From Pyropia yezoensis (lineage: Eukaryota > Rhodophyta > Bangiophyceae > Bangiales > Bangiaceae), in assembly GCA_009829735.1 (NCBI GenBank), contig CM020620.1:8820545-8884544 (forward strand): a DNA stretch of 64,000 nucleotides, written 5' to 3'. The position numbers and the translations under genes were made by a program. This document shows positions 2,239 to 64,000 of this stretch, one piece after another. Under the pieces are notes generated by a model, which saw only the letters and a program-made list of their open reading frames with translations, was not told the origin of the DNA and ran no database searches. Numbering within the stretch: position 1 is the stretch's first letter; every line of letters begins with the position of its first letter.

Positions 2239-2707
2239 TGTGGCATTTTTGACCCCAGGGAAGGGGGCAACACATCCCATGCAAGGGGCGGCAGGCAGCT
2301 ATCCTGACCCATTTCTCCCCATGCATATGGGTCCATATTCCCTAAGTTAGGAAATGTTAGCTTAGTAGTAAATCCAACGTGGATTTGAGGGTTTTCTGCA
2401 TTTTATCGTCTTGAATTCTCGTGTGGCCCGGTGGGCAGGTGCTGGGGTGGGAGATTCCGAGTGGCGAGATTCTGAGTGGACCCTCGGGGGATAAGGGGAG
2501 GGACAGCAGGGCTTGGCCTCGCTTCCCCGTCCCGACCAAGAAACTGTTGGTTCACACACCATCTTCTTGTTTTGTCGTGGGGGGTTTGCCCCACAACAGG
2601 GATAGAGTGTGTGCAACTTGCACTTCTTCCGGTTCCCCCGACACGGAAGGCAGCCCTTGCGCACCGCCCCAACTTGGGTGCCGTGTGTGCGAGTGGTTTT
2701 CGCGACC
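2239..2707 (+). repeat. 5' LTR of element A
   Basis: It begins TGTGGC and aligns over its whole length with 7370-7838. Its last bases read CGCGACC where the 3' LTR has TGCCACA, so the terminal CA has been lost by mutation. Related LTRs are at 6648-7117 (inverted) and 57614-58084 (inverted). Confidence 0.9.
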
Positions 2708-5069: not shown

Positions 5070-6550
5070 CTAGGCACGCATGCTAGGTTCCCAAACACCA
5101 CAACCCTCGCCCTCGCGCGGAGGCGAGCGGTGAGACCCACGCCGATAATGTTCCCCAATCGTCGGATGGGGCGGCGGCTCCAAGTCGGAACCGTCGCGCC
5201 CCTCACGGTCGCGAAAGTGGCGACGACCGCGGCTATTAATCTGCTTTGTCTTGCGCGCAAGATGGCGACGCAGACGCCGGATAGACTCCGTCTCCGACGA
5301 GGTTGAGGACTCCGAGGTGGAATAAGACAACTCGTCTTCCGACACGGAGGGAGATCGCCGCAGTGGGTTTAGCCATGTAGACATCATGGGAGGCCACGGC
5401 CACCACGATTGCCTTGTCCGGGGGGAGGCGCAGTGTGGCGCTCCACCCCCGGGGCATACGGGTAGTCCCCGATGCCCAACGCCTCTTTGAGGACCACGCG
5501 GCCGTCGTGAAGCTCACGGCCGACCCAGACGAGCTGGCGAAGTGCGCCATCGTCCTTGGGCACGCGGGAAGATAGGCACAACTTGTGCTCGATGCTCTCC
5601 CACTTGATGAGCTTGTGGAGACGCAGCATCTCCTCAAGTAGAGTGAGCTGTCCCGATGGACACCCCTCAGCAACTAGCTAAGGGGTGAGCTGCTCCAAAC
5701 CTTGGATAAGGCGGGGGGGATAGATGCCAGAACATCCCCCGCCGCTGTACACAGGACACCCAGGTCGACATGACCTCAAGGAGCCACTGGGTTGCCAACA
5801 TGGCGAGCACCAGGTGGTCCGGGCTAGCCGTCAACATGACGGAGCCGAAGTGGTCGATCAACCGTCGTAGTAGCGCCGGGAACCCATAGGGGACCGCGAC
5901 TTGAGGCCACCACTCGGGCTTCTTGGGGTAGTATTGCTCATTGCTAGCAGGTGACTGCTGCGGAAACTCGAGTTGAGACGAGGTCACCAAGTAGGGACCT
6001 CGCCGGTAGTCTTTCTCCATCCCCACGTTGAAGTGATGACTGTGCGGATCGAAGTCGCGTAGGTACGGGGGGCCAGTTGCCACCGCGTCCAAAGTGAAGG
6101 TCGGCACGTCTCCGGGGCCCGCGGTGGTACCCCCCGCGGGCCAACAAGTTCTGGGCTCGCTGCACATCTTCGACCTCGTCCTCATCCAGGAAGGCAAACT
6201 GGTCTGTCTTGAAGTCGGCAGAAAACCCGACCCTACGGGGATACTTCTCCCGTAGGCGGTCCCAGACGCGACTCATCGCTGTGCCAAGTCGGCCACAGCG
6301 GATAACTGTCAACCCCTCCTCGTACAGGGGCCAAGGGGGGGTAGAACCACCTCCCCAAGGCCTCCCGTGGAACAACGCGGCCCGTCTCCGGGGGAGATCC
6401 CGCCGCCAACCCAAAGCCGGGTGACGCGGGCATCCTATCCCCCGGAGCGACCGCAGAGCCCCCGCCGGAAGTCCCGGCGGGCGCTACATCGCAGGATGTA
6501 TCCTCCATCCGCTCATCCAGGGATTCAGTCTCCAACCCCGCGGTCACCAT
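5070..6550 (-). pseudogene. Antisense accessory ORF of element A, frameshifted
   Basis: On the strand opposite to pol, the start codon at 6550 opens a protein similar along its length to the intact 647-aa antisense ORF at 58423-60366. Shared stretches include SLDERMEDTS, AGTSGGGSA and VVPREALGRWF, and both end in SMRA. Several frameshifts split it into overlapping open segments (about 6550-6233, 6414-5944, 6197-5667, 5673-5236 and 5387-5070). The stop lies 111 nt from the pol stop, exactly as in copy B. Function is unknown; no zinc knuckle or other Gag signature is seen. Confidence 0.8.
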
Positions 6551-6647: not shown

Positions 6648-7117
6648 TGTGGCAAAAACCACAAGCACACACGGCACCCAAGTTGGGGCGGTGTGCTAGG
6701 GTTGCCTCCCGTGTCGGGGGAACCGGAAGAAGTGCAAGTCGCACACACTCTGTCCCTGTTGTGGGGCAAACCCCCCACGGACAAACAAGAAGATGGTGTG
6801 TGGTTCAACAGTTTCTTGGTCGGGACGGGGAAGCAAGGCCAAGCCCCGCTGTCCCTCCCCATATCCCCCCAGGGTCCCCTCAGAATCTCGCCACTCAGAA
6901 TCTCCCACCCCAGCACCTGCCCACCGGGCCACACGAGAATTCAAGACGATAAATGCAGAAAACCCTCAAATCCACGTTGGATTTACTACTAAGCTAACTA
7001 TCCCAAACTTAGGGAATATGGACCCAAATGCAGGGGGAGGAACGGATTAGGCTAGTGGCCTGCCGCCCCTTGCATGGCACGTGTTGCCCCCCCTACCTGG
7101 GGGTCAATACTGCCACA
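6648..7117 (-). mobile_element. Nested solo LTR inside element A
   Basis: This 470-bp LTR of the same family lies in opposite orientation to its host. It starts TGTGGC, ends GCCACA and is flanked by a perfect 5-bp duplication, GCCTC at 6643-6647 and 7118-7122. Removing it restores the sequence GGTGGCCTCCCCAGCG found in the equivalent region of copy B near 58330. It is therefore a later insertion that lost its body by LTR-LTR recombination. Confidence 0.9.
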
Positions 7118-7369: not shown

Positions 7370-7838
7370 TGTGGCGGTATTGACCCCAGGGAGGGGGGCG
7401 ACACATCCCATGCAAGGGGCGGCAGGCAGCTATCCTGACCCATTTCTCCCCATGCATTTGGGTCCGTATTCCCTAAGTTAGGAAATGTTAGCTTAGTAGT
7501 AAATCCAACGTGGATTTGAGGGTTTTCTGCATTTTATCGTCTTGAATTCTCGTGTGGCCCGGTGGGCAGGTGCTGGGGTGGGAGATTCCGAGTGGCGAGA
7601 TTCTGAGTGGACCCTCGGGGGATAAGGGGAGGGACAGCAGGGCTTGGCCTCGCTTCCCCGTCCCGACCAAGAAACTGTTGGTTCACACACCATCTTCTTG
7701 TTTTGTCGTGGGGGGTTTGCCCCACAACAGGGATAGAGAGTGTGCAACTTGCACTTCTTCCGGTTCCCCCGACACGGGAGGCTGCCCTTGCGCACCGCCC
7801 CAACTTGGGTGCCGTGAGTTCGAGTGGTTCTTGCCACA
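7370..7838 (+). repeat. 3' LTR of element A
   Basis: Begins TGTGGC and ends GCCACA. The sequence immediately after it (7839-7843, CCCTC) is the second copy of the target duplication. Confidence 0.9.
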
Positions 7839-8931
7839 CCCTCAACGTATTCGTGATGGTGTCAGCGACACGTGCCAGCCAATAGGACGATAGGGTGCGG
7901 GGAAGAGGATGGAGATGGTGACGGTGGTGGGTCTGGGGAAGAAGACGGTGGTGATCGAGGGGGGCTCAAAGGGTTAATGTCGTCTTTGGTCTGTGTCTGT
8001 GGTTGCCCCTCCGGTCTCCCCCGGTGGCGCCGACACCCACGCACTATATACTCGCGTCGGGGCACGCCAGGTGCCCCAAAGCACGTGCTTCCTCGTTGCG
8101 CCGCCGGTAGGCATAAAATGGCCCAAAAACAAAACATGGCTCTCAGAACAAAGCATGGGCGGGCGTGCGCACTGAAGGAGTGCAGCCCCAGTTTGCCCCA
8201 AACGAAGGGCTCCGGCGTTCAGCGCCTAGTGCGCCGTCCGAGCCGGCCCCAGACGCCAGGCGGTCCGAAGATCCGAGAGGCGTGTAAGCACGGTTCGATC
8301 GAGTCGATCGAATCTGCCAGCCGGCTAGCCAGTCACATCGCTGCAATGCTGCAGCGAGGACACTCTAACGGACTCGCCAGCTGTGGCAGATGTGGCTCGT
8401 CATGGGTGCTGACGGTGGCGCCTTTCGACAGGCCATGATGCGTTGTCGATGGCCGCTGTTGTGCGGCCAGCAGACACCGTGAGACAGCGGCTGACTCATC
8501 ATGAGTCTGGAAGGTACTCCGCGTCATGGCCCACAATACAAGGAAATTGATCCATGTTGCCAGGAGTTGGTTCGGCAGGATCTGTAAGGAGAGGTCGCAG
8601 ATAATATCGTATAGGTATGACCATGGGATCAGGGGGGAGATCCTTACACTTCCCTAACCCGTAGAGTACCAACGGAGATGCACGTACGGTCACCTCGTTT
8701 CAACAACCTCATGTGAAGCGGGTAGGGAGATACCTTGAGTAGGTCGGCAAACTCGGGGTCCGCGTTGTACTCTTGGTCTAGGGTGGCAAGGTCTTGATCA
8801 CATTGGCTTATGGACATGATGTCGTTGATTTCAGTTTTCTCGGGTAGGTGTCCGGTGGTCTTGGTTAGCACGCGACTAACAAGATCTTAATTGGAAGCGT
8901 GCTTGTCGGGGGCGTCTTGTGGTTGCCTCAA
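7839..8931 (+). repeat. Left arm of 3.6-kb palindrome
   Basis: About 1.09 kb that is the reverse complement of 10403-11473. Inner parts look almost identical (translations from the two arms differ by about one residue in 188), while the outer 40 bases carry several mismatches. Element A inserted at its outer end; the arm resumes for about 30 bases left of 2234. The arm carries no convincing gene apart from the tail of a decayed pol (to 8644). Confidence 0.9.
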
Positions 8932-10322
8932 AAGAGCATCAGCTACGGGGTTGGATGTGCCCTTGATGGGAATGATCTTGAAATCGAACTGCTCCAAAAG
9001 CTCTAGCCACTTGACTTTGCGGTCGTCGAGCTTCTGCTAGGTTTTTAGGTACCTCAGAGACTCATGGTCGGAGTGCACCTCGAAAAGCCTTCCATGGAGG
9101 TAGCAGCGCCAGTTTCGAATGGCTTGTACTACTGCGAGATGTTCGCGCTCCCGGATACTGTAGCGCTGCTCGTGGATGTTCAGCGTCAATGAGAAGTAGG
9201 CCACTGGGCGTCGTCCTTTTCGGTCATTTTGGTCAAGGACAGCGCCAACAGCATACCCGCTGGCATCTGTGGACATAAAAAAGATTGGATGCGTCATTTC
9301 GAATGGCCTCAGTACAGGTGCACTTGTCGTCAGGGTTTGTAGTTGTTCAAAAGCCATCTGGTCGTCAGAGTTCCAATCAAAGTCGACGTTTCCAGTTGGC
9401 CTTGTGAGTGGTGCAGCCACGGATGCCATTCCCTTGATCAATTGTCGATAGAAGTTGACCATGCCGAAGAAGGATTGCACATACTTTTTGCTCTGTGGAG
9501 TTGCCCATAATCAAATGGCCTGGACCTTGTAGTCCTCCATAGAGAAACCTTTATTGGAAATGACGTGGCCGAGGTAGTCCACAGTTGTTCGAGCAAATTG
9601 GCATTTGCTGAGCTTGGCGTAGAGCTTTTCTCTCGCAACTTGTCCAGGGCTTGCCTCAGGTGCTTAAGGTGATCTTCGTAAGTTTCACTGTAGACCAGGA
9701 TGTCGTCGAGGTTGACACATATGAAATCGTAGAGATAGGGTCGGAAGATGTCATTCATTAGGTTCATGAAGACCGCGGGGGCATTTGTTAGCCCAAAGGG
9801 TAGCACCGTAAACTCGTAGAACCCGTATTTTGTTCGGAACGCCATCAGCGGGATAGTATCCGGGTCAAGCCGGATCAGGTGGTAACCTGATCGGAGGTCG
9901 ATCTTCGTGAAGTACTTGGCCTTTCGGAGTTGGTCGAAGATGTCGTCAATTCGTGGTAAGGGATATGCGCTCTTGATAGAGGCCTTGTTCAATGCTCGAT
10001 AATCGATGCACATTCGCCAGCCATCGTTCTTCTTCGCTGAAGAGAGTACAGAGGAGCCCCACGGTGAAGCGCTTGGTTGGATGAACCCCTTTCGTATGAG
10101 GGTTGCAAGTTGTGTCTTGAGTTCATCGAGTTCCCACTCAGATAGGCGATAAATGCAACTGCCACGTGGGTGAGCGTCCGCGGTAAGCTTGACGCTAACC
10201 TTGTGACTGCGTTCAGGAGGAAGTCCATCCGGAAGCTCTTCCGGGAGGACGTCGGCGTACTCCTTGAGAAAATCTTGAACGCCAATCTTGTCTTCATGTA
10301 AGGATTTCCCCCCTAACCCCAT
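8644..10322 (-). pseudogene. Ty3/gypsy RT-RNase H remnant in the palindrome centre
   Basis: The minus strand encodes a reverse transcriptase ([31 protein letters not shown] and [12 protein letters not shown]) in which the usual YLDD box reads NLDD. A frameshift follows near 9650, then an RNase H (MSTDASGYAVGAVL, EREHLAVVQAI and VHSDHESLRYL). The RNase H is followed by a stop near 9040, another near 8888 and a tail ending at 8644. Integrase is not seen. The protein is only distantly like the pols of elements A, B and C, so it represents a separate lineage. It is inactive. Confidence 0.85.
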
Positions 10323-10402
10323 GCCTCAGACCTATAGGATATTATCTGCGACCTCTCCTTACAGATCCTGCCGAACCAACTCCTGGCAACATGGATCAAT
10401 TC

Positions 10403-11473
10403 ATTGAGGCAACCACAAGACGCCCCCGACAAGCACGCTTCCAATTAAGATCTTGTTAGTCGCGTGCTAACCAAGACCACCGGACACCTACCCGAGAAAA
10501 CTGAAATCAACGACATCATGTCCATAAGCCAATGTGATCAAGACCTTGCCACCCTAGACCAAGAGTACAACGCGGACCCCGAGTTTGCCGACCTACTCAA
10601 GGTATCTCCCTACCCGCTTCACATGAGGTTGTTGAAACGAGGTGACCGTACGTGCATCTCCGTTGGTACTCTACGGGTTAGGGAAGTGTAAGGATCTCCC
10701 CCCTGATCCCATGGTCATACCTATACGATATTATCTGCGACCTCTCCTTACAGATCCTGCCGAACCAACTCCTGGCAACATGGATCAATTTCCTTGTATT
10801 GTGGGCCATGACGCGGAGTACCTTCCAGACTCATGATGAGTCAGCCGCTGTCTCACGGTGTCTGCTGGCCGCACAACAGCGGCCATCGACAACGCATCAT
10901 GGCCTGTCGAAAGGCGCCACCGTCAGCACCCATGACGAGCCACATCTGCCACAGCTGGCGAGTCCGTTAGAGTGTCCTCGCTGCAGCATTGCAGCGATGT
11001 GACTGGCTAGCCGGCTGGCAGATTCGATCGACTCGATCGAACCGTGCTTACACGCCTCTCGGATCTTCGGACCGCCTGGCGTCTGGGGCCGGCTCGGACG
11101 GCGCACTAGGCGCTGAACGCCGGAGCCCTTCGTTTGGGGCAAACTGGGGCTGCACTCCTTCAGTGCGCACGCCCGCCCATGCTTTGTTCTGAGAGCCATG
11201 TTTTGTTTTTGGGCCATTTTATGCCTACCGGCGGCGCAACGAGGAAGCACGTGCTTTGGGGCACCTGGCGTGCCCCGACGCGAGTATATAGTGCGTGGGT
11301 GTCGGCGCCACCGGGGGAGACCGGAGGGGCAACCACAGACACAGACCAAAGACGACATTAACCCTTTGAGCCCCCCTCGATCACCACCGTCTTCTTCCCC
11401 AGACCCACCACCGTCACCATCTCCATCCTCTTCCCCGCACCCTATCGTCCTTTTGGCTGGCACGGGTCGTTGA
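10403..11473 (-). repeat. Right arm of 3.6-kb palindrome
   Basis: Inverted copy of 7839-8931. A roughly 100-bp piece of it (10690-10792) also occurs in direct orientation just inside the arm at 10302-10402, so the centre was rearranged when the palindrome formed. Confidence 0.9.
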
Positions 11474-11535
11474 CACCATCACGAGTACGTTCAGGGCTGC
11501 CCAAGTGTGGGTTGCTTCCTCACAGTGAGGCACAC

Positions 11536-43998: not shown

Positions 43999-44310
43999 GT
44001 CCACAGAGGGGGAGGGCAGCCAGGGGCGCGCTGGGGGTAGGGGACTTACTGCACGTGGTGCCAACGGGATGGGGGACAGAGGGGGAGGGGGGGGGAAGCG
44101 CCCGCCCGCTGTAACCCCCAACGGGCGTCCCTACAGAGGGCACGGCAGGCCTGGCCGTGCCTCGGCAGCCGCCGCCGTGGTGGCGGTGGGGACGGCGGTG
44201 GGCGGCCGCCGCGGGTGCGGCGCCGCGGCCGCCACCCCTCCGCTTTCCCCCATGTCGTTGCGTGACGTGGCCCGCAGGGGCCGCGCACACGCCGCGACGC
44301 GCAAGCGCAT
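43999..44310. other. Spacer after the copper ATPase
   Basis: GC-rich DNA with poly-G runs. No gene is seen. It ends at the left arm of the 1.8-kb palindrome. Confidence 0.5.
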
Positions 44311-46140
44311 TGAGGCACGTGCATCGAATCGCAGATCTGAGCTTCGAATCGCATGCGAGATTACCGCCTGTACCCCCCCCCGTCTTGTCCTGTGACGCCA
44401 CTGTCCAGCACACAGTGCGCCCCACGCCACGAGCGGCACACGGTTGTGCTCCCCGCAGCTTGGGCTCCATGCCCATGTGTATTTTGTGGAAAAAGATTGA
44501 AAATCGGCCACCTGCTGCCGTCATCCGTACAGTACCAAAGCATGCCCACCCGTTCGTCACTCACCCCATGATGCCAACACCACCAGGCACCGAAGAGCAA
44601 CACCACGCACCAAAGTGGCTTCCTCTACCCGTCCTGCTTCTAGTACGCAAAAAAAAGCGGTGTGTACCTTTGCATGTTGGCCAGGATAGGGCTTGGTCAA
44701 AAAAGAAAGCAGGAGAAAACAGCTGTCTTTGAGCCCCTCCTCCCATCGCCAAGAGAAGTATAGCAACCGGGCACCACCGTGGCCCTAACTATACCTCTGA
44801 GCCCCTGTGAGCTTGCTGGCATATGAAAATCCCACTGCCGGTACTCAAACATGCTCCAAGGAACAGCTGTTTGCACACACTCAGACCCTCCGTTCCCAGC
44901 GTATGGTTGCAGAAAAGAAGCGGATTTGTACAGAAAGGAACCACTCTGGCTAGCTCAGCGTCTCACTGGAAGTCCTGAAGATGCTTTGGGACGCAAAGGT
45001 TCATGTGTGGTGCGATTCATTGTCCCACGGCGCGTGCTGTTCTGTTTGTTTCATCGTGTGGCGTTGAAAGTAGCTCTTGATCTGGTCCTTGGCGTCACTG
45101 TTGCCGGTGAGAGGGCTGTTACTGGGTCCAAGTCTCTCTTCTTGTTGTTCTTTGGCAGTATGCAGGTGAGACACAGTTTAGCAGTGTCCCAGCAGGCAGC
45201 GCGTTCTACTGTATGTTTCTTCCCGGAGCACTTTAGTGCACAGCGCTACTGGTCGACACGATTCCACTTCCTGGCGGGTGGAAGGGGGCATAGAGTTCCT
45301 TTGTACGCTAGTAAGCGTGTGTGAGCACAAAAAACGGCTCCTAAACGCACGAGGAGCACATGTCTACACGTCTTGCTTCTCGGAAACGCGGTACAATGTC
45401 CCTTGGACGATCCGAACATTGAAGCAGAGTACTCCACGACACCACACCTCTTCTTTTAGACGCACATACTCGCAGGGACTTCCAGTGAGACGCTGAGCTA
45501 GCCAGAGTGGTTCCTTTCTGTACAAATCCGCTTCTTTTCTGCAACCATACGCTGGGAACGGAGGGTCTGAGTGTGTGCAAACAGCTGTTCCTTGGAGCAT
45601 GTTTGAGTACCGGCAGTGGGATTTTCATATGCCAGCAAGCTCACAGGGGCTCAGAGGTATAGTTAGGGCCACGGTGGTGCCCGGTTGCTATACTTCTCTT
45701 GGCGATGGGAGGAGGGGCTCAAAGACAGCTGTTTTCTCCTGCTTTCTTTTTTGACCAAGCCCTATCCTGGCCAACATGCAAAGGTACACACCGCTTTTTT
45801 TTGCGTACTAGAAGCAGGACGGGTAGAGGAAGCCACTTTGGTGCGTGGTGTTGCTCTTCGGTGCCTGGTGGTGTTGGCATCATGGGGTGAGTGACGAACG
45901 GGTGGGCATGCTTTGGTACTGTACGGATGACGGCAGCAGGTGGCCGATTTTCAATCTTTTTCCACAAAATACACATGGGCATGGAGCCCAAGCTGCGGGG
46001 AGCACAACCGTGTGCCGCTCGTGGCGTGGGGCGCACTGTGTGCTGGACAGTGGCGTCACAGGACAAGACGGGGGGGGGTACAGGCGGTAATCTCGCATGC
46101 GATTCGAAGCTCAGATCTGCGATTCGATGCACGTGCCTCA
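44311..46140. mobile_element. 1.8-kb palindrome with ~665-bp arms (foldback-like)
   Basis: 44311-44976 and 45476-46140 are inverted copies that appear essentially identical, including short open frames of 63, 69, 72 and 81 codons that translate identically from both arms. A 499-bp unique spacer (44977-45475) separates them. The whole segment is much less GC-rich than its surroundings. No transposase, no LTR ends and no clear target duplication are visible. The outer ends continue as GCGCA(T/A)TGAGGC with one mismatch. Either a foldback transposon or a recent inverted duplication would fit. Confidence 0.75.
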
Positions 46141-46597
46141 TTGCGCGGCCGCTGTCGCCGCCGCCGCTGCTATCACCGCCGCCGCTGCTGTCTCCACCGC
46201 CGCCGCTGTCGCCGCCGCAGCGGCGCGGGGACAGCCGCGGCCGCGGCGACAGCGGCCACCGCCGCGACCCGCCGCGACGCGCGAGTGCGTGTCGATTCCC
46301 ATGCCGCTGTGCCGGCCACGCCACCATCAGCACGGCCCTATTTTTTCTCTTGTCAACGCGCACCCCACCACGGGCGCGGTAGCCACCGCCGGGCCGTGGC
46401 GCCAGGCACGCCCACCCCCCCCCCCCCCCCCCTTGGCCCCGCCGCCCCCCCCCCTCTCCGCCACCCACCATCGCGCCCCCCCCCATCCCCATACAACAGT
46501 CAGCCCCCGCCCGCAGGCGCCCCCCCCCGCCCCGCCCCCTACCGAGCACCCCCCCCCAACAGGGTGGGGAGCTCCGACGCCCCCGCGGCGCGGCCGC

Positions 46598-52726: not shown

Positions 52727-52932
52727 CGGGTTTCCGTCACCCTTGTGGTGACGCCGTCTTCGGCCCTGGCACACGGATAGGGATCCGGTCCTTTTCTTGT
52801 ACTCGTGGTGTTGCGACCTGATCGATTGTGTTGAGTTTTTACCTGTGACGGTGATCTACTGTTACTCTCCCCAATCTACTCCCTTGCTCTCTTATTCGTG
52901 GTGATTGTTACGTCGGTCGACTGACTGTGACG

Positions 52933-55116
52933 ATGTCTACCCAAGAGACGGGGAACGTTCAAGATGACGGATCGGCGTCGACGCCGACCCCGGAGGTGAC
53001 TACGGGAACTGGGATCGGGAACCCGATCGACAACATTGAGACGCCAATGCTTTCCGGTGCCGGATCGACGTTTGGCACGGCTCGGACGGCAGGAGGCGGG
53101 GGCCCGCCTCAACTGTCGTCGACCGACCTCACTCCGTCGCCTCCTTCACCCGGGGATTCCCTGATGGCATCATTGGCCCGCATCGAGGCCCGGTTTTCCG
53201 GACTCGACGCTCGCCAGGAGCGGACGGAGGACGCGATGGCAGTGTTGATGTCAACACGCCACACGACGGGACCCCGTCGTGTTCCTCCCACACCAGTACG
53301 GTTCGAACCGGCCGGACTACTTTCGGAGTCCACCAGGGTCAACCCCGGTGTTGCTACTCCTGGACAACCCCCGGACACAATGGGGTATGGTTCCGACTCG
53401 TCGGCTGAGTTGGAACGTAGCCACACGGAGCGATACGCTCGGAGCACCCGAAGCGGACTCCACGGACACGACCCGGCGGATACTTACGCCGGTGGAGAGT
53501 CGGTTATTGGGGGAGGGGGTACCCTCTCACAGTACCCCCACGACGAAGGAGGCCAGGCAACTCGGGTTCCCGAGGTGCCGACGCCTGAAGTACCATCTTC
53601 AGTGGTGGAAGCTATGACCGCGCAGGTAACTGTGAGCCTACTGAAGCGGATGGAGTCCGATGAGTTTGCTCATCAATTGGCTAAGCGACTGGATATCCAG
53701 GACGCCGACACGGAGATCGTCAACGAAGTCTTCAGGTCGGTACTGACTCCCGAACGTTATCGTTTGGAAGACCGATCTACTACCGTATCGGAATCGATGC
53801 GTAATACGTCGCACCGAGCGATCCGCTCTATGCAGACCCTTATGAAGGGTGTCCCAATGTTCGGGGGCCCCAACGGACGCCCGTTGGCAGTCATCGGCTT
53901 CTTGACAAGCTTCAAGGCAGCCGCAGACAAGGCGCTCGTCAACGAGGGGCTGGCCCTGGAGATCCTCCCTTTCTTTGTTGATGAACGGGTGCGAGGCATT
54001 CTTCGCCAGGCATCCCCGATGCCGGGAATGAGGGTCGCGGCCACCCCCATGGATTACCGTGGGATCCTCAAGGAGCTGCTGAGCAGTTACCTCAGTGAGG
54101 ACAAGTGCGAGGACCACTACCGGGCCCTGCGCACTGCCACCGCCCAGAGCTGGGAGGATGAGGAGATGTTTGGACGCCGGATCCAAGAGCTCGACTACGA
54201 GCTGGGGAAGCTCCTCGGAGAAGGGGAGCTACGGGCCATCCTGTTCGCAGGAGTACCCAACTACGTGCGGATATCCGCTCGGGGAGCCAATACGGCACGG
54301 ACCAACTTCAGTCGACTGATGCATATGTGCAAGTCCCTAGGGGACGCCTACCGGGTTCTACACCCGGAGTGTGCCTTGGCCCCGAAGCCCAAGGGTGAGG
54401 GAGGCAAGCCCAGTCTTACCCCGGTACCGAGGCCAGAGAAGGTGGAACGTAAGGCCGCACCAGTACTGGAGGCGACCGAACATCCCCCTATTGGTGAGGA
54501 TGAACCTCTAGTCGACCAACAGGGCCACCTGTTGCTACCGGCGACGCCGGTGATTGATGAGCATGGTACGGTAGCGTACATCGCCCCGGCTGGAACCCAG
54601 TTCCAGGTCAACGAAGGAGCGGGACGGCGCGTCCCGTATGTGCGGACGACGGGGTATGCCCCGGTTACGGGTAACCCCCACCAGCCCCTGCCTACATGGG
54701 CAGTACGTACGGAGGCACCTCCGCAGATTGCGGGCCGACCCAACCGGTTGGGGGAGTCCATGTTCCGGTTGACCCAAGGACCCAAGGCCTACCAGGGAGC
54801 AGGCACTCCGGCGCCCGAGAGAGGCAACCGCAGCTACGGGGCTACCCCGATGCGAACTCAAGGAGGGACCGGCACGTCCGGATGTATGTTGTGTGGGGAT
54901 CCCCAGCACTGGGTGTCTTCCTGCCCACTCATCCCCGAGGAGTCTCGGCGGGCAGCGGCGCACCGCAAGGCATCCACCGGGGGGTATCCCGCCAGAGCAC
55001 CCGGACCCGCACCGGGTAGGCAGCCAGCTCCAGGTGGAGTACTGGCCGTCGAGGAGGCACCGCCTCAGCCGGATGTCCCGGCGGACAGCACCCTACCAAG
55101 GGCGGGAAACGAGTAA
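52933..55116 (+). CDS. gag: Gag polyprotein of element C, 727 aa
   Basis: The ATG at 52933 starts MSTQETGNVQ. A Ser/Thr/Pro-rich N-terminus contains a coiled-coil-prone stretch (MASLARIEARFSGLDARQER). The central helical region (about 220-460) includes VIGFLTSFKAAADKALVNEG and HYRALRTATAQSWEDEEMFG, typical of the capsid/retrotransposon-gag fold. A CCHC zinc knuckle, CMLCGDPQHWVSSC (C651, C654, H659, C664), marks the nucleocapsid. The stop at 55114-55116 follows a slippery GGGAAAC heptamer. Gag forms the cytoplasmic particle in which reverse transcription takes place. The frame is intact, indicating recent activity. Confidence 0.9.
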   Translation: MSTQETGNVQDDGSASTPTPEVTTGTGIGNPIDNIETPMLSGAGSTFGTARTAGGGGPPQLSSTDLTPSPPSPGDSLMASLARIEARFSGLDARQERTEDAMAVLMSTRHTTGPRRVPPTPVRFEPAGLLSESTRVNPGVATPGQPPDTMGYGSDSSAELERSHTERYARSTRSGLHGHDPADTYAGGESVIGGGGTLSQYPHDEGGQATRVPEVPTPEVPSSVVEAMTAQVTVSLLKRMESDEFAHQLAKRLDIQDADTEIVNEVFRSVLTPERYRLEDRSTTVSESMRNTSHRAIRSMQTLMKGVPMFGGPNGRPLAVIGFLTSFKAAADKALVNEGLALEILPFFVDERVRGILRQASPMPGMRVAATPMDYRGILKELLSSYLSEDKCEDHYRALRTATAQSWEDEEMFGRRIQELDYELGKLLGEGELRAILFAGVPNYVRISARGANTARTNFSRLMHMCKSLGDAYRVLHPECALAPKPKGEGGKPSLTPVPRPEKVERKAAPVLEATEHPPIGEDEPLVDQQGHLLLPATPVIDEHGTVAYIAPAGTQFQVNEGAGRRVPYVRTTGYAPVTGNPHQPLPTWAVRTEAPPQIAGRPNRLGESMFRLTQGPKAYQGAGTPAPERGNRSYGATPMRTQGGTGTSGCMLCGDPQHWVSSCPLIPEESRRAAAHRKASTGGYPARAPGPAPGRQPAPGGVLAVEEAPPQPDVPADSTLPRAGNE
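55104..55110 (+). promoter_or_regulatory. -1 ribosomal frameshift site between gag and pol of element C
   Basis: GGGAAAC fits the X XXY YYZ rule in the gag frame (G GGA AAC) three bases before the gag TAA. A -1 slip puts ribosomes exactly into the pol frame, which is open from 55110 through the pol ATG at 55125. Downstream are a CCGGGG/CCCCGG pairing (about 55129 and 55163) and a perfect stem CCGCGGGG-AAAG-CCCCGCGG near 55170-55190. Confidence 0.6.
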
Positions 55117-55124
55117 GAGGAAGG

Positions 55125-57613
55125 ATGACCGGGGGGCGCTGGGGTAACCCAAGCAAGCCACCCCGGAGTACCGCGGGGAAAGCCCCGCGGAGAGCGCGGT
55201 TGAGCCGACGCCGCATCAACCCCCGGGTACACCTTCCGGCCCCGACGACACGGCGTCAGGGGATTGATGACCAACCACCAAGGTTGGGAGGAGAGGACGG
55301 GAAGCCCCGTCACATGGAACCAGACAAGGGCCCTGTTCAGGATGCCCGAGCTACACCGGATATCGGTGTAGGCCACGTGCTGTTTACCTTGGAGAACTTC
55401 AAGGTATCAGCCACACTGGGGGTTGACCCCCAGTCGACACGATCGTACTACCCTGTACTGGATACAGGGGCTGGACCCAACCTTATCCGGAAGGATACCC
55501 TCCCGGACAAGTGGCTTCCGCGAGTCAGAGTGACTCGGGGACCCACCATCAAGGACGCGAATGGTCGCCTCATTCGTACGACCGCAGCGATGTCGCTGCG
55601 GGTTACCATCGGGGAACTCACCACGGAAGTCGACTTCCTGGTGTGTGAGACCCTATCGGTGCCCTGCATACTGGGGTGCACCTTCATCAACGTTCAAGTT
55701 GATGCAATCCGGCCAGGCCGGAGGACCGTCGAGCTTCAAGAAGCCGACGGGACGAAGCGAGGACACACGGCTATCGTCAGGGACCTGACGCTACAAGGGA
55801 GCCACGTTAACGTGGCTGAGGTGTACGCAAGTGTCGAGCCGAAGACACTTTGGTTGGCCAAGCGAACTCGCTTTGAGCCGTTGTCGGAGACAGTCCTCCC
55901 GGCTAACTGTGACCTCGCAGGCATCTGCAGAGTCAAGTCCAACTTGCGGACGTACAAGCGCCATGGGTTGACCATGGCCAACGGTCTCATAGACCTCCCA
56001 TCAGGAGGGTCGTCCCTCCTAGTGATGGCGAACGATCGCCGTAAGGCAGTCACCCTCCCGAAGGGAACTATCTTCGGGATTGCCGAGCTCTACGAAGGAG
56101 ATATCCTTACCCCTGACAAGGAAGGTCAAGTGGACCCACTTGAGGTGCTGGCGGTCGCCGAGACCACCGAGCGACAGCAACCCGATGACGGGAAGCCTAG
56201 TCGACCATCATTACCGGCGGATATTCCGCCGAAGGACCAAGAAGCATTGAAGGCACTGGCCGGGGCTGACCTCGACCACCTTCCCCCTTCCGTAGCCGAA
56301 GGGGTACGACGGATGTTAAGAAAGCATGACGTCATGTGGACAGGCGGAGCCCTGGGTACCATTGGGGCAACCCAACATCGTATTGACCTGGTACCAGGCG
56401 CACGCCCCGCCCGGTCACAACCGCACCGAGCGGGACCTATGCAACGAGAGATCGTTGATGGAGAAGTGAAGAGGATGAGTGAAGCGAATGTGATACGACC
56501 TTCGATGTCGGAGTGGGGTGCCCCAGTGGTTATCGTACCGAAGAACGATCAAACCCCTCGGTTTTGCATCGATTATCGACGCCTCAACTTGGTTACCAAG
56601 AAGGACTCCTACTCTTTACCAAGGATGGATGAATGCATCGACTCCCTGGGGGAAGCTACGGTGTTTACCACCATCGACTGCAATGCTGGATACTGGCAGA
56701 TCCCGGTGGCGGACGAGGATATCCCCAAGACGGCATTCGTCTGTCACAGTGGAGTGTACGAGTTCCTAAGGATGCCCTTCGGATTGTCCAACGCCCCCGC
56801 TACATTCCAGCGGGCTATCGACATTATACTGTCGGGGGTGAAGAGGCGTAACTGCCTAGTGTACCTCGATGACGTCATCGTCTTCTCGCGTAACATGGAT
56901 GACCATGTGCAACATGTTGACGAGGTACTCACCCTCTTGAGGAACGCCGGGGTAACCCTGCGTCTGAAGAAGTGCGCCTTCTTCCAACAGACGGTCGAGT
57001 ATCTGGGCCACCAGATAACCCCTGGTAAACTAGGGGTACTCGAAGCCAATACCCGGGCACTCCGGGATGCCCGGTTCCCTAACACCCAGACGCAGCTCAA
57101 GAGCTTCCTGGGAATGTGCAATGTATACCGACGGTTCGTCAAGGACTTCGCTCGGATAGCTAAACCGTTAACGGTTCTTACGAGCAGTACCCTGCCCAAG
57201 GTACTCCAACCCCCTTCGCCTAGCGAAGAGGAGGCATTCGAGTCGCTGAAGCGAGCCCTACTATCCCCACCCGTCCTTGCGTTACCGCACCGACGGGGTA
57301 CCCTCGTCATCGATGTCGATGCGTGCGACACCCAAGTGGGATGCACCCTGCTACAGGGGGAGACGTTGATCGGTACCGATAACGTTATCCCGGACCTACG
57401 TCCGGTAGGATACTTCAGCCGGACACTCAACCCGGCTGAGCGTAATTATAGTGCCACCGAGCGTGAATGCCTCGGAGTTATATGGGCAGTGCAACTGCTC
57501 CGTCCATACCTGGAGGGCTCCAGGCTCATCGTGAGGTCCGACCACGAACCCCTACGATGGCTCCTCAACCTTGGTGACAAGGATTCCGATAGCCATGGGA
57601 GGCTAGCCCGATG
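55125..57613 (+). CDS. pol: Pol of element C (protease, RT, RNase H), 3' truncated
   Basis: Domains in order: an aspartic protease with DTGAGPNLI (D113) and a hydrophobic CILGCTFIN flap-end; reverse transcriptase with FCIDYRRLN, TIDCNAGYWQI, MPFGLSNAPATFQ and the catalytic YLDD (residues 580-583); RNase H with VIDVDACDTQVGCTLL, TERECLGVIWA and VRSDHEPLRWL. The reading frame runs into the LTR of element B at 57614 just after RNase H. Integrase is therefore missing from this window. The frame is -1 relative to gag, and translation most likely occurs as Gag-Pol by frameshifting rather than from the ATG at 55125. No internal stop is present. The protein is the same broad lineage as pol of elements A/B but clearly distinct. 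Confidence 0.9.
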
Positions 57614-58084
57614 TGTGGCAAAAACCACTAGCACACACGGCACCCAAGTTGGGGCGGTGTGCTAGGGCTGCCTCCCGTGTCGGGGGAACCGGAAGAAGTG
57701 CAATTCGCACACACTCTGTCCCTGTTGTGGGGCAAACCCCCCACGGACAAAAAAGAGGATGGTGTGTGGTCCAACAGTTTCTTGGTCGGGACGGGGACGC
57801 AGGGCCAAGCCCCGCTGTCCCTCCCCTTATCCCCCCAGGGTCCACTCAGAATCTCGCCACTCAGAATCTCCCACCCCAGCACCTGCCCACCGGGCCACAC
57901 GAAAATTCAAGACGATAAATGCAGAAAACCCTCAAATCCAAGTTGGATTTACTACTAAGCTAACTATCCCAAACTTAGGGAATATGGACCCAAATGCAGG
58001 GGGAGGAACGGATCAGGCTAGTGGCCTGCCGCCCCTTGCATGGCACGTGTTGCCCCCCCTACCTGGGGGGTCAATACTGCCACA
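57614..58084 (-). repeat. 3' LTR of element B
   Basis: 471 bp, TGTGGC...GCCACA on either strand because the ends are inverted repeats. Homologous to the LTRs at 2239, 6648 and 7370. Confidence 0.9.
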
Positions 58085-58097
58085 CTCCACTCTCCTC
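58085..58097 (-). promoter_or_regulatory. Polypurine tract of element B
   Basis: Minus strand GAGGAGAGTGGAG directly upstream of the LTR, matching the tract of copy A in place and sequence. Confidence 0.75.
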
Positions 58098-58422
58098 AGT
58101 TCCGACCGACCCGGTCGGCCCTGTGAGGGGGTGCGTAAACGCACGTCTCGGCGTTGGGGGCGCGACTTGCTGTCCCCCATCGAGTACGTAACACGGATGT
58201 GGAGGCGGTCACGTTGACCGCTCCTCTCCTCAAGCTTGCCCACTCGGCAGCTTGCTCTCCTCAGTTCACACTCCACCATCACCACCACCTCCCCCTCACC
58301 TTCCACTGGGCCGCCCCACGCTGGGGAGGCCACCCGTATACCCACGATCCGAGTCCCCCTCAACTCGAGGCGGGTCTCGTTCTGCGATAGCCAGAGCGTC
58401 TCTCCCCAACTTGGGGAGAGCC

Positions 58423-60366
58423 ATGGCGACTCCGGGAGTGGAGACGGACTCTCTTGACGAGCGCATGGAGGACACCTCCTACGGTGCAGCACCCGCCGGG
58501 ACTTCCGGCGGGGGCTCCGCGATCGCTCCGGGGGACGGGACTCCCACGTCGCCCGGCTTTGGGTTGACGGCGGGGTCTCCCCCGGAGGCGGGACAAGTTG
58601 TCCCGCGTGAGGCCTTGGGGCGGTGGTTTTACCCCGCTTGGCCTCTCTATGAGGAGGGACTGACTGTTCTTCGCTGTGGCCGACTAGGCGCAGCGATGGG
58701 CCGGGTATGGGACCGCCTACGGGAGAAGTATCCCCGTAGGGTCGGGTTCCCTGCCGGCTTCAGGACGGACCAGTTTGCCTTCCTGGACGATGAGGAGGTT
58801 GAGGACGTTCAGCGTGCCAAGGCCATGGTGGACCGCGGGGGAACTATCCCGGGTCCCGGCGACTTGCCGACCTTCACGTGGGACGCTGTGGCAACTCGCC
58901 CACCGTACCTCCACGAGGCCGATCCGCAGACTCATCACTTTGATGTGCGGATGGAGAAAGACTTCCGGCGAGGTCCCTACTTGGTGACCTCGGCTCAACT
59001 TGAGTTTCCTCAACAGTCTGCTGCCAGTAAGGAGCAGTACTATCCGAAGAAGCCCGAGTGGTGGCCTCAAGTTGAGGTCCCCTACGGGTTCCCGGCGTTG
59101 TTGCCACGGTTGCTTGACCACTTCGGCTCCGTCATGTTGACGGCTGCCCCTGATCACCTGGTGTGGGCCATGTTGGCCACCCAGTGGCTCCTCGAGGTCA
59201 TGTCGACCTGGGTGTCCTGTGTTCAGCGGCGGGGGATGCTCTGGCATCTCCCCCTCCGGCTCCTCCAAGGTTTGGAACAGCTCACCCCTCAGCTAGTTGC
59301 TGAGGGGTGCTCATCAGGACAACTCACTCTACTTGAGGAGATGCTCCGCCTCCACAAGTTTATCGAGTGGGAGAGCATCGAGCACAAGTTGCGCCGCCCC
59401 ACTCGTGGGCCCAAGGACGATGGCGCACTTCGCCAGTTCGTATGGGTCGCTCGTGAACTTCATGACGGCCGTGTGGTCCTACGAGAGGGGTTGGGCATCG
59501 GGGACTACCCGTATGCCCCGGGGGTGGATCGCCACACTGCGCCACCCCCGGACAAGTCCATAGTTATGGCCGTGCCGTCCTATGATGACCATATGACTCA
59601 ACCCACTGCGGGGGTCCCAAGTCGGGGTCGCAGTTACACCCGGGTACCGCCAATTCGGCGGGCCCCTCCGCTTCCTCCTGTTCCTTTCCAACCTCACGGG
59701 AACATCCCGATCAGCGTGGCCGTGGAGTCTTCCACCCCGGTGTCCCCAAACTTGGGGGCCACCCTCCTGACGGTATACCCCAAGTTGGTGTTACCGCCCA
59801 CGCCTCTAACCTCAGAGATGATGATCACCACGTTGGTGCGCACCATTTCCTGGTTGGCCGCGTCGACCGCAACCCTACAGAGTTCCGAGACTCCTCAACT
59901 TGAGGAGCGCGTTCGTACTGCAGTGGCGACCGCGAGTTGCGAGTCGGTGGCGGAGTTTATGACAGCCGAGTTGGCTCGCATTGGGGCTATTATGCCCCAG
60001 CCAGCCCCACTTGGGCGTGGCAAACGTCGCGCGAGCCGGGCATACTCGCCTCCTCGCCGTCGTCGCCGACACTCGCGGCGCTCTCCTTCCGTATCGGAAG
60101 ACGAGCTGTCTTACTCCGTTTCGGAGTCCTCTATCCCGTCGGAGACGGAGTCTGTCCAGCGTCTGCGTCGCAAACTTGCGCGCAAGACCAGGCAGAAGAG
60201 TGGCCACGGTCGGCGCCACTTGCGCGACCGTGAGGGGCGCGACGGTTCCGACTTGGAGCCGCCGCCCCCTCCAACGAGTGCAGACCGTTATCGGCGTGGG
60301 TCTCGCCGCTCGCCTCCACGTGAGGGCGAGGGCCGTGGAGTGGGAGAGTCTAGCATGCGTGCCTAG
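58423..60366 (+). CDS. Antisense accessory ORF of chromovirus B, 647 aa, function unknown
   Basis: Uninterrupted from the ATG at 58423 (MATPGVETDSLDERMEDTSY) to 60366, on the strand opposite to pol, between pol and the 3' LTR. Residues 1-65 are Gly/Pro/Ser-rich. Residues 65-400 look globular and helical, Trp/Tyr-rich (LGRWFYPAWPLYEEG, HLVWAMLATQWLLEVMSTWV and FVWVARELHDGRVVLREGLG). The C-terminal 90 residues are strongly basic with Arg/Ser runs (RRRRRHSRRSPS, RRKLARKTRQKSGHGRR) and alternating acidic patches, suggesting RNA binding or nuclear location. No Cys-His knuckle, protease or transposase motif is seen. A decayed homologue sits at the same place in copy A. Antisense ORFs between pol and the 3' LTR are known in some plant Ty3/gypsy elements; relation to those is not shown. 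Expression would need a promoter in the 3' LTR or the 340-bp leader. Confidence 0.8.
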   Translation: MATPGVETDSLDERMEDTSYGAAPAGTSGGGSAIAPGDGTPTSPGFGLTAGSPPEAGQVVPREALGRWFYPAWPLYEEGLTVLRCGRLGAAMGRVWDRLREKYPRRVGFPAGFRTDQFAFLDDEEVEDVQRAKAMVDRGGTIPGPGDLPTFTWDAVATRPPYLHEADPQTHHFDVRMEKDFRRGPYLVTSAQLEFPQQSAASKEQYYPKKPEWWPQVEVPYGFPALLPRLLDHFGSVMLTAAPDHLVWAMLATQWLLEVMSTWVSCVQRRGMLWHLPLRLLQGLEQLTPQLVAEGCSSGQLTLLEEMLRLHKFIEWESIEHKLRRPTRGPKDDGALRQFVWVARELHDGRVVLREGLGIGDYPYAPGVDRHTAPPPDKSIVMAVPSYDDHMTQPTAGVPSRGRSYTRVPPIRRAPPLPPVPFQPHGNIPISVAVESSTPVSPNLGATLLTVYPKLVLPPTPLTSEMMITTLVRTISWLAASTATLQSSETPQLEERVRTAVATASCESVAEFMTAELARIGAIMPQPAPLGRGKRRASRAYSPPRRRRRHSRRSPSVSEDELSYSVSESSIPSETESVQRLRRKLARKTRQKSGHGRRHLRDREGRDGSDLEPPPPPTSADRYRRGSRRSPPREGEGRGVGESSMRA

Positions 60367-60477
60367 TTGGCAGCTGCCTTTGTTGTGAGAGTGTGAGGGT
60401 TAGGGCTGTAGTTAAAAGCCACTCTGCGTACCACTTCGACTTGAAGCACTCTCTTGGCACTGTTGCTCGGCCTTCCC

Positions 60478-63400
60478 TCACGTTGAGGGAGGGCTGTTAG
60501 GGTCTATCTCATTCCGGGCACAGTACGCCCGGACCTTCTCAGCGGGAAGGTCCTCCACATACTCCCACGTATCATCCTTGGCTTTGCAGCCAAACCAACG
60601 CACCCTCAACATGAGGCGGTCAGTGTCTTCATCCCATCCGTGGTCGATGAACTTATCGAACACGTACTCCTGCGGGCCCTGTTTGGCCGCAGGCAGTGAG
60701 GGGAGGCGCCACGCTTCCAAAGCACGCGCCCAAGCTGGGTCGCCTGCAGGCGGTGGTGCAACTTTGACCACGTCCTGTCCGTTCACTGTGCGGACCCCAT
60801 CGTCACTTTCGATGGTGAAGCGCCGCCCATCAGTACGAAGGACCTGGTACGGTCCCTTCGTCTGGAATACCAGCTTACCCCCAGTTGGGGTGTGCGAGTG
60901 TACCAGCACCCAGTCACCCTGCTCGGGGACATGTTTAGCATTGCGCATCTTTTTGTCAAAGGTACGCTTGTAGCGCTTTTGTGCTTTGTCCATCTCAGCC
61001 CTGACTTTAGGGATGAGGTTTTCAAGCCTAGCGGCGAACTCCGCCTTACTCTCAGTAGGAGTAGGCGTACTGCCACCATCCTCCCTAGTTGGGAGCGACC
61101 GCCGCACGGCAATAGACCGCACGCGACGGGGGGTCACAAAAGCGAGGGGTACTTCCCCTGTAGATGAGTGAACCTGCGAATTGTAGGCAGCAGTAAGGAT
61201 AGAAATGTATTGGTCCCACGTCTTCACGTGCTCACTCACATAGTGGCGCAGCTGCCTAACAATAGTTTTGTTGAAGCGCTCCACCTGCCCATTAGTTTGT
61301 GGGTGGTAGGGGGTGGCATAGTTTGCCTTAACCCCCAACATATCCAGCACTCCCTGAAACAGTACAGACGCAAATTGCGGTCCATTGTCCGATAGTGTAC
61401 TATCTGGGATGCCATACGCGGCAACCCAGTGATCTAGGAAGGCTGACACGACCGACATGGCCGTGATCTCTGCCAGTGGGATCGCTCGCGTAAGTTTCGT
61501 GAAGCGGTCACAGATGACCAGGAGGTACTGGTTGCCCTCCTCGGTCACGGGCAGTGGCCCAAGGATATCCATCGCCAACGCGGCGATGGGCTCCTTGGCC
61601 GGGAACAATAGCATAGCCGTAGTAGGCCGCCGTTCCATCAGACGATTCTGTGCACAACTTGTGCAGGCAGCCACCCAACTGTAGATGTCCACCACCATGG
61701 ACGGCCAGTAGTACCTGGTCCTCAGGGTCTCGTACAGTTTACTAGACCCCAGGTGACCACCCGTGGGAGCGTTGTGCTCCCTCTCAAGGATACTGTCCTT
61801 GAGGGATGCGGGGACGACAAGTTGTTCGGTCCCTTGGAATACCCCCCTCCTCATGAGGAGGCCATCGTCTCCCAGAAAGAAACGCGTCTCTACCACTCTA
61901 TCCAGTATATCTCTCTGCGACTTGCAGAAGGGATCCTCGGCCTGGGCCTTCACCACCTCGTCCAGGGACAGGGGCAAGTACTTCTTGTTCCCTGGCGCCT
62001 CGGGGTTCAACGCCTGACCCGAGCGCGTGACTACCCCCACGATGGGGATGTCCTCATCGACTGGGTTAGTGTCCAGCCCCTCTGTAGGTACCCGAGAGAG
62101 GCCGTCGGCAAGGGCATGTTGCCTGCCAGGTCGGTATTCAATGTCAAAGTTGAAGGGTGCCAGTCGCACCCTCCACCGGTTGAGACGAGTGTTCGTACAG
62201 TCCGTCTTAAAGATGAACTGCAACGCGCGGTGGTCACAGCGGATGAGGAACTTCTCACCCTCCAGGTAGTGACGAAGTGACGTCACCGCCCACACCACTG
62301 CGAGTCCTTCCAACTCGGTGACTCCGTAGTTCTTCTCGGCCGAGTTTAGCCCCTTACTAAAGTATCCCACCGGCAAGTACTCCTTGTCCCGCTGCTGCTG
62401 AAGCAACACACAACCAAGTTGGTCGTAGCTAGCGTCCACATCCAGGATGTAGTGGCCTCCCAACCTGGGAATAGCCAAGATGGGGGGGCTTCAGCAGAAG
62501 GTCCCGAAGAGTCTCAAAGGATTCCTGCTCCACCCGACTTGGGGGAGGTAGGTTCTTCGGTAGCGTTGAGCTCACTAACTCATTCAACGGCTTCGCCACC
62601 TTGGCGAAGCCCTTGGTGAAACGTCGGTACACGTTACACATCCCGAGGAAGCTCCTCATCTGGGTCTGGGTCCGGGGGTACTGAGCCTTACGAATGGCCC
62701 TCAAGTTCTTCTCGTTAACACTGAGACGCCCCGGATGGACAACATGTCCCAAGTACTCCACCTCTTGAGTAAAGAGGTGGCACTTACTCGCCTTCAGTGA
62801 CACACCGGCGTCAGCAGGTAGCTTGAACACCTGGCCAAGATGGCCGATGTGTTCCTCCGGACTTCGGGAGAACACAATGATATCGTCTAGGTACACAAGA
62901 CAGATCTGCCACCGTACTCCGGCCAGAATCATGTCCATAGCGCGCTGGAAAGTTGCCGGCGCGTTACACAGACCAAACGGTAGACGCTTGCACTGGTAGG
63001 TCTCACATTGACAGGTAAAGGTAGTTGTATGCCTGTCCTCCGGGGCAATGGGAATATGCCAGTACCCCGCGTTACAGTCCAGGGTAGAGAACACGTTTGC
63101 CTCCCCCAGAGAGTCCAGACAGTCATCCATCCTAGGTAGAGGATAACTGTCCTTCACCGTGCTCTCGTTGAGCTTACGGTAGTCGATACAAAACCGGGGG
63201 GTCCCATCAACTTTGGGGACGATAACCACCGGACTCGCCCACTCGGCGTTGCTGGCCTCGATCACATCGAGGGCCTCCATGCGAGCAACTTTCTCCTTAA
63301 CGAGGGCCCTTGAACGAGGTCCTCCCCTATACGGTTGTTGGCGTATAGGGGGTGCACCGGGCTTCAACTCGATCCGGTGTTGGGTGGCTCTCATGAGTCC

Positions 63401-64000
63401 CAATTGACCATCCCACAACTTGTGATATTGGTCCAAGAGGCGTTCAACTTGAACCCTCAACCTGGGGGGGACACCCTCCATGTTCACATGGGGTCGAGGA
63501 GAGGCGGCCGACTTGGCTTGATGCTTCTCCTTTCCGGACTTCGGGTCGCTACTTGCGCCCACGTTGAGGGTGACCGCTACTACCGGTCCCTCGTGTTGGT
63601 CGATATAGCCGAACTTGGCTCCCGACTTGAAGTACTTCGGCGTCGGGCTCAGGTTCATCACCTGGATCCTCCACGGGACTCCGGCTTTGGAGTCCATCGT
63701 GCCAAGGGCAACATGCACTTGGTGCTTGCGAGCAAGACGGGGGTGAGGGTGCACCATCCCGTTCCCCGTAAAATCAGTTACAACATCAACGTGCGCCACC
63801 GAGTTGGGGGGCAACGTGACTTTGCGGGCTAGACGCAGGGTAGCAGTAAACCCTTCCCTCACAGAGCAAACAGGCTTCGACTGTGAGACTGTCACAGGAG
63901 CCACAGACTTTCCCTTACCAAGGATGGGGATAGTCTCCCCATTCATCAACTTGACCCAGTACTCAGGGCCACAAATCAAAGGCACTTGTGTAACAACATA
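60478..64000 (-). CDS. pol: Pol of chromovirus B (RT, RNase H, integrase, chromodomain), one frameshift
   Basis: The first frame enters from beyond 64000 and runs to about 62490, covering the protease-RT linker and reverse transcriptase (FCIDYRKLNESTVKDSYPLP, LDCNAGYWHI, LPFGLCNAPATFQ and the catalytic VYLDD). A run of seven C (62482-62488 on the plus strand as G) shifts the frame; six would join it. The second frame (62478-60478) has RNase H (YILDVDASYDQLGCVLL, TELEGLAVVWAV and IRCDHRALQF), the integrase zinc finger H235, H242, C272 and C275, the catalytic D304, D364 and E400 (D-35-E spacing), and a C-terminal chromodomain (YVFDKFIDHGWDEDTD, then LRVRWFGCKAKDDTWEYVED). Apart from the homopolymer indel the protein is well preserved. 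Chromodomains direct integration to particular histone marks. The stop is 111 nt from the stop of the convergent accessory ORF. Confidence 0.9.

Follow-up and report, generated by a model that had tools for sequence, protein, structure and literature searches.

Antisense accessory open reading frames (aORFs) have been described in several LTR retrotransposons, among them gene23 of Grande and the corresponding frames of RIRE2, PvRetro13 and fungal Boty. In the available part of that account, such aORFs have no clear similarity to other proteins and the GENE23 product is nuclear (PMC7264820). Another group is Retand, a non-chromovirus lineage of flowering plants: antisense TRP28 ORFs are present in 97% of its clusters, and its active elements include non-autonomous ones. 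Retand antisense ORFs contain the TRP28 or Transposase 28 domain (PF04195), and a regulatory, DNA-binding role has been proposed for them (PMC11963269, accessible sections). Non-autonomous elements can carry an extra ORF, as does TelKA2n of bdelloid rotifers (PMC5408684, accessible sections), and the human retrovirus HTLV produces the nuclear protein HBZ from an antisense promoter in its 3' LTR (cited in the accessible sections of PMC11963269 and PMC7264820). The same sections of these two papers call the function of LTR-element antisense accessory ORFs unknown.

In red algae, the titles and opening abstracts of the open-licence PMC papers listed yielded no antisense ORF in a retroelement, and the accessible part of PMC6317226 contains no mention of an extra ORF, additional ORF or aORF. 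According to the corresponding part of PMC7423979, the published Pyropia yezoensis gene models were predicted on a repeat-masked assembly, so ORF genes of this kind may be missing from the annotation. Here we analyse a stretch of 64,000 nucleotides from P. yezoensis contig CM020620.1, hereafter the window, in which a Ty3/gypsy element carries a long antisense ORF between its pol and its 3' LTR, the positional definition of an aORF-3R.

The antisense ORF and its host element

The ORF belongs to a Ty3/gypsy element (element B) spanning 57614 to about 66995 in window-equivalent coordinates, with the minus strand as its sense strand. A second, decayed copy (copy A) lies near the start of the window. 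Their features are as follows.

57609..57613, no strand: target-site duplication CGATG, repeated immediately after the 5' LTR
57614..58084, minus: 3' LTR of element B, with TG...CA ends, paired with the 5' LTR
58085..58097, minus: purine-rich tract adjoining the 3' LTR, which sets the element sense as minus
58195..58422, plus: open in-frame extension upstream of the ATG, leader-like rather than coding-like (Ka/Ks 0.61)
58423..60366, plus: antisense accessory ORF of 647 codons, ATG in a GCCATGG context, stop TAG (translation and copy comparison)
60367..60477, no strand: spacer of 111 nt between the convergent stop codons (divergence 0.078, 21 diverged copies)
60478..62478, minus: pol, with RNase H, integrase and a weak chromodomain (Pfam)
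62429..63985, minus: pol, reverse transcriptase (RT) in a separate overlapping frame (Pfam and ORF list)
66525-66995, window-equivalent: 5' LTR of element B, in sequence beyond the window
2239..2706, plus: 5' LTR of copy A (alignment)
5070..6550, minus: decayed ORF homologue of copy A, in frameshifted pieces and without 467 nt (alignment to B)
6648..7117, minus: reverse solo LTR between the copy A LTR and ORF, in the leader, 97% identical to the LTR of B
7370..7839, plus: 3' LTR of copy A (alignment)

Translation confirmed that the 647 codons at window 58423-60366 (plus strand) contain no stop, as the first-pass annotation had reported; they sit within a stop-to-stop open run of 724 codons. 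The position between pol and the 3' LTR is established by Pfam domains, LTR alignment and coordinates. Since the pol domains and gag lie on the minus strand, the ORF is antisense to gag-pol, and the claim of a truly antisense orientation is borne out by the sense-direction purine-rich tract at the 3' LTR, by the CGATG duplication and by an LTR pair 99.6% identical over 472 aligned bases. A sense-strand gene at the same site was rejected, all three sense frames carrying many stops. Between the 5' LTR and pol, the sense strand has a 678-codon gag frame that includes a CCHC zinc knuckle; the antisense ORF is therefore accessory, added to a normal gag-pol set. Pol of copy B is broken into two frames. 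The proposed chromovirus assignment is tentative: the C-terminus of the copy B integrase matches Chromo (PF00385), but weakly, at 18.5 bits (E 0.0019) and below the 25.1 cut-off.

Both copies had been said to place the ORF stop exactly 111 nt from the convergent pol stop. This holds for copy B; the pol frame of copy A terminates early, so its spacing applies at most as a homologous position. Nor is copy A recognisable end to end, as had been thought: besides its frameshifts it lacks 467 nt of the ORF (B about 59611-60070) and carries the reverse solo LTR in its leader. With part of the copy A ORF missing, the comparison of the two copies is by itself weaker than first stated.

Element B is inserted into the pol of a different Ty3/gypsy element, C (window 52927-57613, plus strand; L009:5478-7223), whose gag and pol lie on the plus strand and which is split by B. 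In the 1.8 kb examined downstream of element C pol there is no complete antisense ORF of at least 150 aa, and a relation of the ORF to the gag of this neighbour was rejected. Elsewhere in the window, a perfect 1,093-nt inverted repeat (7839-8931 and 10404-11496) flanks a 1.5-kb stretch, where minus-strand frames at 9037-10325 resemble, by eye, another Ty3/gypsy RT and RNase H. Another perfect inverted repeat, with arms of 671 nt (44305-44975 and 45476-46146) separated by a 500-nt spacer, lies in locally lower GC.

Codon-level selection among copies

Besides B, the ORF is found at 98-99% identity in at least 39 further genomic places, the best-scoring among 1,528 candidates. A 26-nt tag taken from the ORF has 686 exact occurrences in the genome. 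Genome searches scored the best 40 or 150 of 1,364-1,528 candidates and close copies filled these lists; among them, more distant relatives of the ORF in the same genome were not found.

Ka/Ks was computed between B and 35 copies drawn from 38 ORF-bearing loci, leaving out L001 (B itself), L010 (copy A) and L030, the last two with fewer than 1,800 aligned bases. In the ORF frame it was 0.17-0.37 for all 35 copies: the 7 young copies ranged over 0.174-0.276, and the 28 older ones, whose Ks is 0.30-0.49, over 0.183-0.374. Four of the five other frames gave 1.0-2.8. The fifth, the mirror sense frame, gave 0.29-0.48 yet is full of stops, and its low values fit third positions that coincide with those of the ORF. 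Three of the 28 older copies (L034, L038 and L039), 11-15% diverged, keep all 647 codons with neither indel nor stop; another, L024, has no in-frame stops but a compensated shift, and the remaining 24 contain at least one stop each, as expected of old insertions.

Constraint was followed along the ORF in 25 older copies, L011, L027 and L032 being dropped for poor alignment. All seven segments are constrained (Ka/Ks 0.17-0.33), and constraint tightens at the ATG, from 0.61 in the upstream extension (24 copies) to 0.26 in codons 1-60 (25 copies); the extension is thus not coding to the same degree as the ORF. Of the 25 diverged copies, 21 retain the ATG and 23 the TAG. As a control, pol gave Ka/Ks of 0.13-0.16 in diverged loci, of which only 2 contained enough of it, and of 0.22-0.40 in four young loci, where changes are few; L002, L004 and L008 were unusable because their pol is deleted.

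The stretch 60217-60477, which covers the final 150 nt of the ORF and the 111-nt spacer, is among the least diverged between copies (0.085 and 0.078, respectively, in 21 diverged copies). Sixteen of 551 windows of 111 nt are at or below the spacer divergence, all of them starting at 60216-60366. Ks in the older copies is 0.235 in the tail, compared with 0.37-0.51 in the other segments. A second overlapping gene beneath the tail was rejected, although tail Ks is low, as only the mirror frame is constrained besides the ORF; the spacer showed no unusual RNA fold, and an RNA structure there was likewise rejected. A shared 3'-end signal or gene conversion could possibly account for the low divergence of the convergent 3' ends.

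Recent selection was assessed in 23 young intact ORFs, namely B, L002-L008 and 15 deletion derivatives (described below) chosen for intactness. Variants shared by at least two copies comprise 70 synonymous and 10 nonsynonymous changes, against 37 and 50 among private variants (Fisher P 9e-10); the neutral expectation for N/S in this ORF is 2.1-2.8. In our reading, shared variants were transmitted through transposition and private ones mostly reflect later decay. Adding five copies, two of them broken, brings the synonymous-to-nonsynonymous (S:N) counts to 72:12 shared and 57:90 private; the 10 pol-bearing copies alone give 55:58 private and 5:2 shared, a class too small to tell.

Taken together, Ka/Ks in the ORF frame, the shared and private variants and the three diverged full-length copies indicate that the protein is under selection. 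These comparisons of sequence strongly support a real, conserved antisense accessory gene, as the first-pass annotation had proposed, and show purifying selection on its product. The annotation had named dN/dS near 1 and absence from other family members as outcomes contrary to its proposal; the ratio is about 0.2 across copies, and the ORF recurs in family members.

Nature of the protein and alternative explanations

The reading that we favour, at slightly better than even confidence, is that of an accessory gene of a high-copy Ty3/gypsy family, expressed from an antisense mRNA and encoding a nuclear, nucleic-acid-binding regulator, perhaps with a benefit in cis. The copy comparisons show that the ORF, on the strand opposite gag-pol, is kept by purifying selection on its protein. 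Translation would most likely proceed from an antisense mRNA whose start lies within the 3' LTR or just internal to it and whose end lies near the 3' end of pol. The product combines a Trp-containing, probably helical middle with a basic Arg/Ser-rich tail that could serve in RNA or DNA binding and in nuclear localisation; the protein would most likely act in the nucleus, regulating transcription, RNA handling or chromatin of the element itself. The more specific roles in splicing, silencing or particle RNA that the first-pass annotation put forward are speculative. This nuclear, nucleic-acid-binding role is inferred from composition and by analogy with plant antisense ORFs.

The tail (residues 526-647, 122 aa) contains 24% Arg and 16% Ser and has a net charge of +18. 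Its earlier description as basic and RS-like is right as to composition, but with 5 RS/SR dipeptides in 122 residues it lacks the extended repeats of an SR protein and is an Arg/Ser-rich tail rather than a classical RS domain. In the middle region, which includes W213-W214, a low-confidence model places helices at about 223-345. Structure prediction, which had been suggested as a check, was run by single-sequence AlphaFold2 and gave no usable fold: mean pLDDT was 40 for residues 55-400 and 57 for residues 205-345, the latter all helices, and both models are unreliable. A fold search with the 205-345 model reached a best E of 0.51, which is not meaningful.

It seems unlikely that the element captured the ORF, in inverted orientation, as a host gene that may still serve a function derived from the cell. 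The protein has no match to a Pfam family with an E value of up to 1, no relative in the PDB by sequence or profile, no match in a phage collection and no relative in IMG/VR or GTDB, where the seed-pattern scans detect only short-seed matches; the first-pass statement that it matches nothing known is thus upheld as far as Pfam, the PDB, IMG/VR and GTDB go. The lack of a homologue in phage, viral and prokaryote collections leaves room for a eukaryotic origin. On the other hand, copies with Ks up to 0.49 share the ORF, which makes it a resident part of the element, and all scored genome matches look like copies of the repeat family (the best 40 or 150, beyond which a distant host gene could hide).

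A structural particle protein, env-like or a second nucleocapsid, would use a helical domain and an Arg-rich tail for genome packaging, and the basic Arg/Ser-rich tail and the helical middle of the low-confidence models could suit such RNA packaging. This possibility is distinctly unlikely. A zinc-knuckle gag is already present, and a structural protein made in bulk from the antisense strand would require a promoter of its own. Membrane segments are expected above a hydropathy of about 1.6, and the best 19-residue Kyte-Doolittle mean is 1.23, low for such a segment; by hydropathy, the protein thus shows no transmembrane segment of the kind expected in an env-like accessory protein.

Antisense or double-stranded RNA might instead tune silencing, with the long frame as a by-product. 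Functions as antisense RNA have been put forward for regions of this kind (PMC7264820, accessible sections), and the low nucleotide-level divergence of the tail and spacer would agree with this. However, selection tracks the codon positions of the ORF and tightens at its ATG, and shared nonsynonymous variants are depleted, neither of which is predicted by a function in RNA only. Ka/Ks largely refutes RNA as the sole function, an explanation that we regard as very improbable. Finally, a chance frame kept open only by the youth of the copies is virtually untenable and was rejected: regional GC is 63% and the window holds many other long frames, but the open run of 724 codons exceeds all of 300 first-order Markov sequences modelled on the region (9.4 kb; median 260, maximum 436 codons), and Ka/Ks is about 0.2 at Ks of 0.3-0.5.

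Deletion derivatives and comparison with known systems

An internally deleted form of about 5 kb, which the first-pass annotation did not anticipate, is present at at least 40 places. Two examples on different chromosomes, L004 and L008, in which the structure was checked from LTR to LTR, have identical internal deletions. They keep both LTRs, the entire ORF, pol from its C-terminal end as far as window-equivalent 61282, a small fragment at 63293-63625, and the 5' leader together with the N-terminus of gag; most of gag, the protease, RT, RNase H and most of the integrase are gone. A stretch spanning the deletions is 98-100% identical at 40 of the 40 places scored, L004 and L008 included, and the exact junction occurs 27 times in the genome. 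The ORF site was inspected in 20 of the 38 other junction places: 15 have all 647 codons, three carry a stop or frameshift, one has an unaligned 5' part and one is without the ORF, so that ORF sequence is present at 19 of the 20. Among at least 39 other places selected by pol, five out of five inspected contain ORF sequence (three intact, one open without a stop, one frameshifted). In this small sample, the ORF is therefore found in most copies and is conserved like other proteins of the element, with Ka/Ks of about 0.2 compared with 0.13-0.16 for pol.

In L004, the pol remnant (3556-4689, minus strand) forms one open frame in which the region upstream of RT is fused to the integrase C-terminus and chromodomain; its part 3556-4360 is free of stops in all 8 copies examined. 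Rearrangement is also seen in another short copy, L002, which at 4344-4651 carries an inverted pol piece and 61 nt of the antisense ORF beside the 5' LTR.

Derivatives without most of gag-pol usually carry the ORF intact, from which we infer that it may benefit the very copy encoding it, and not just the family in trans. Eight derivatives share 28 ORF sites absent from 10 pol-bearing copies and 4 other derivatives, 25 of them synonymous and 3 nonsynonymous; these changes may have arisen in an unsampled pol-bearing lineage. The pol stub retained in the derivatives, compared in eight copies, has shared S:N counts of 13:4, private counts of 14:10 and no stops in any of the eight, the ORF of these copies giving 56:7 and 18:10. 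This similar pattern in the stub counts against a simple reading in cis. In 13 core derivatives alone, shared (20:4) and private (30:14) counts do not differ significantly (P 0.25). By sequence distance, a pol-bearing copy is the nearest match to the ORF of L004; that of L008 ties, and that of L072 is slightly nearer to a pol-bearing copy; the ORFs of derivatives may therefore be refreshed by recombination with pol-bearing elements.

Derivatives that lack most of gag-pol yet keep the ORF amount to a natural experiment that could separate benefit in cis from benefit in trans, and the nori family is a good test case, with a 108-Mb genome, three chromosomes, hundreds of copies and codon-level evidence of selection. 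A bolder version, speculative and rather unlikely as a whole, combines a cis-preferring gene, an ambisense replicon and a sequence-novel red-algal protein independent of the flowering-plant TRP28 type. If it were true, a mobile derivative could borrow Gag and Pol from its relatives and would still have to bring the antisense gene, whose product, and neither Gag nor Pol, would be the one protein that a copy cannot borrow.

As in Retand, the antisense ORF lies between pol and the 3' LTR and is a regular feature of recently active elements. Unlike Retand, the nori protein has no match to PF04195 at E up to 1, the host is a red alga, the element has a weak chromodomain, and the region from pol to the 3' LTR of element B measures about 2.39 kb, compared with 2.9-6.6 kb (PMC11963269, accessible sections). 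Lacking PF04195 and the span of 2.9 kb or more in a non-chromovirus, the family falls outside the Retand/TRP28 group. The TelKA2n ORF is described as env-like, in the part of its account cited above, whereas the nori ORF is antisense and encodes no membrane segment. HBZ is a functional analogy only, with no sequence relation claimed; HTLV is an exogenous retrovirus and the nori transcript is putative. The comparison with Grande gene23, RIRE2, PvRetro13 and Boty is by description, from the available part of the source: in Pfam the nori protein shows no domain shared with their aORFs but resembles them in position, orientation and recurrence within the family. The family thereby extends antisense accessory ORFs to red algae, with a protein devoid of a recognisable plant TRP28 domain.
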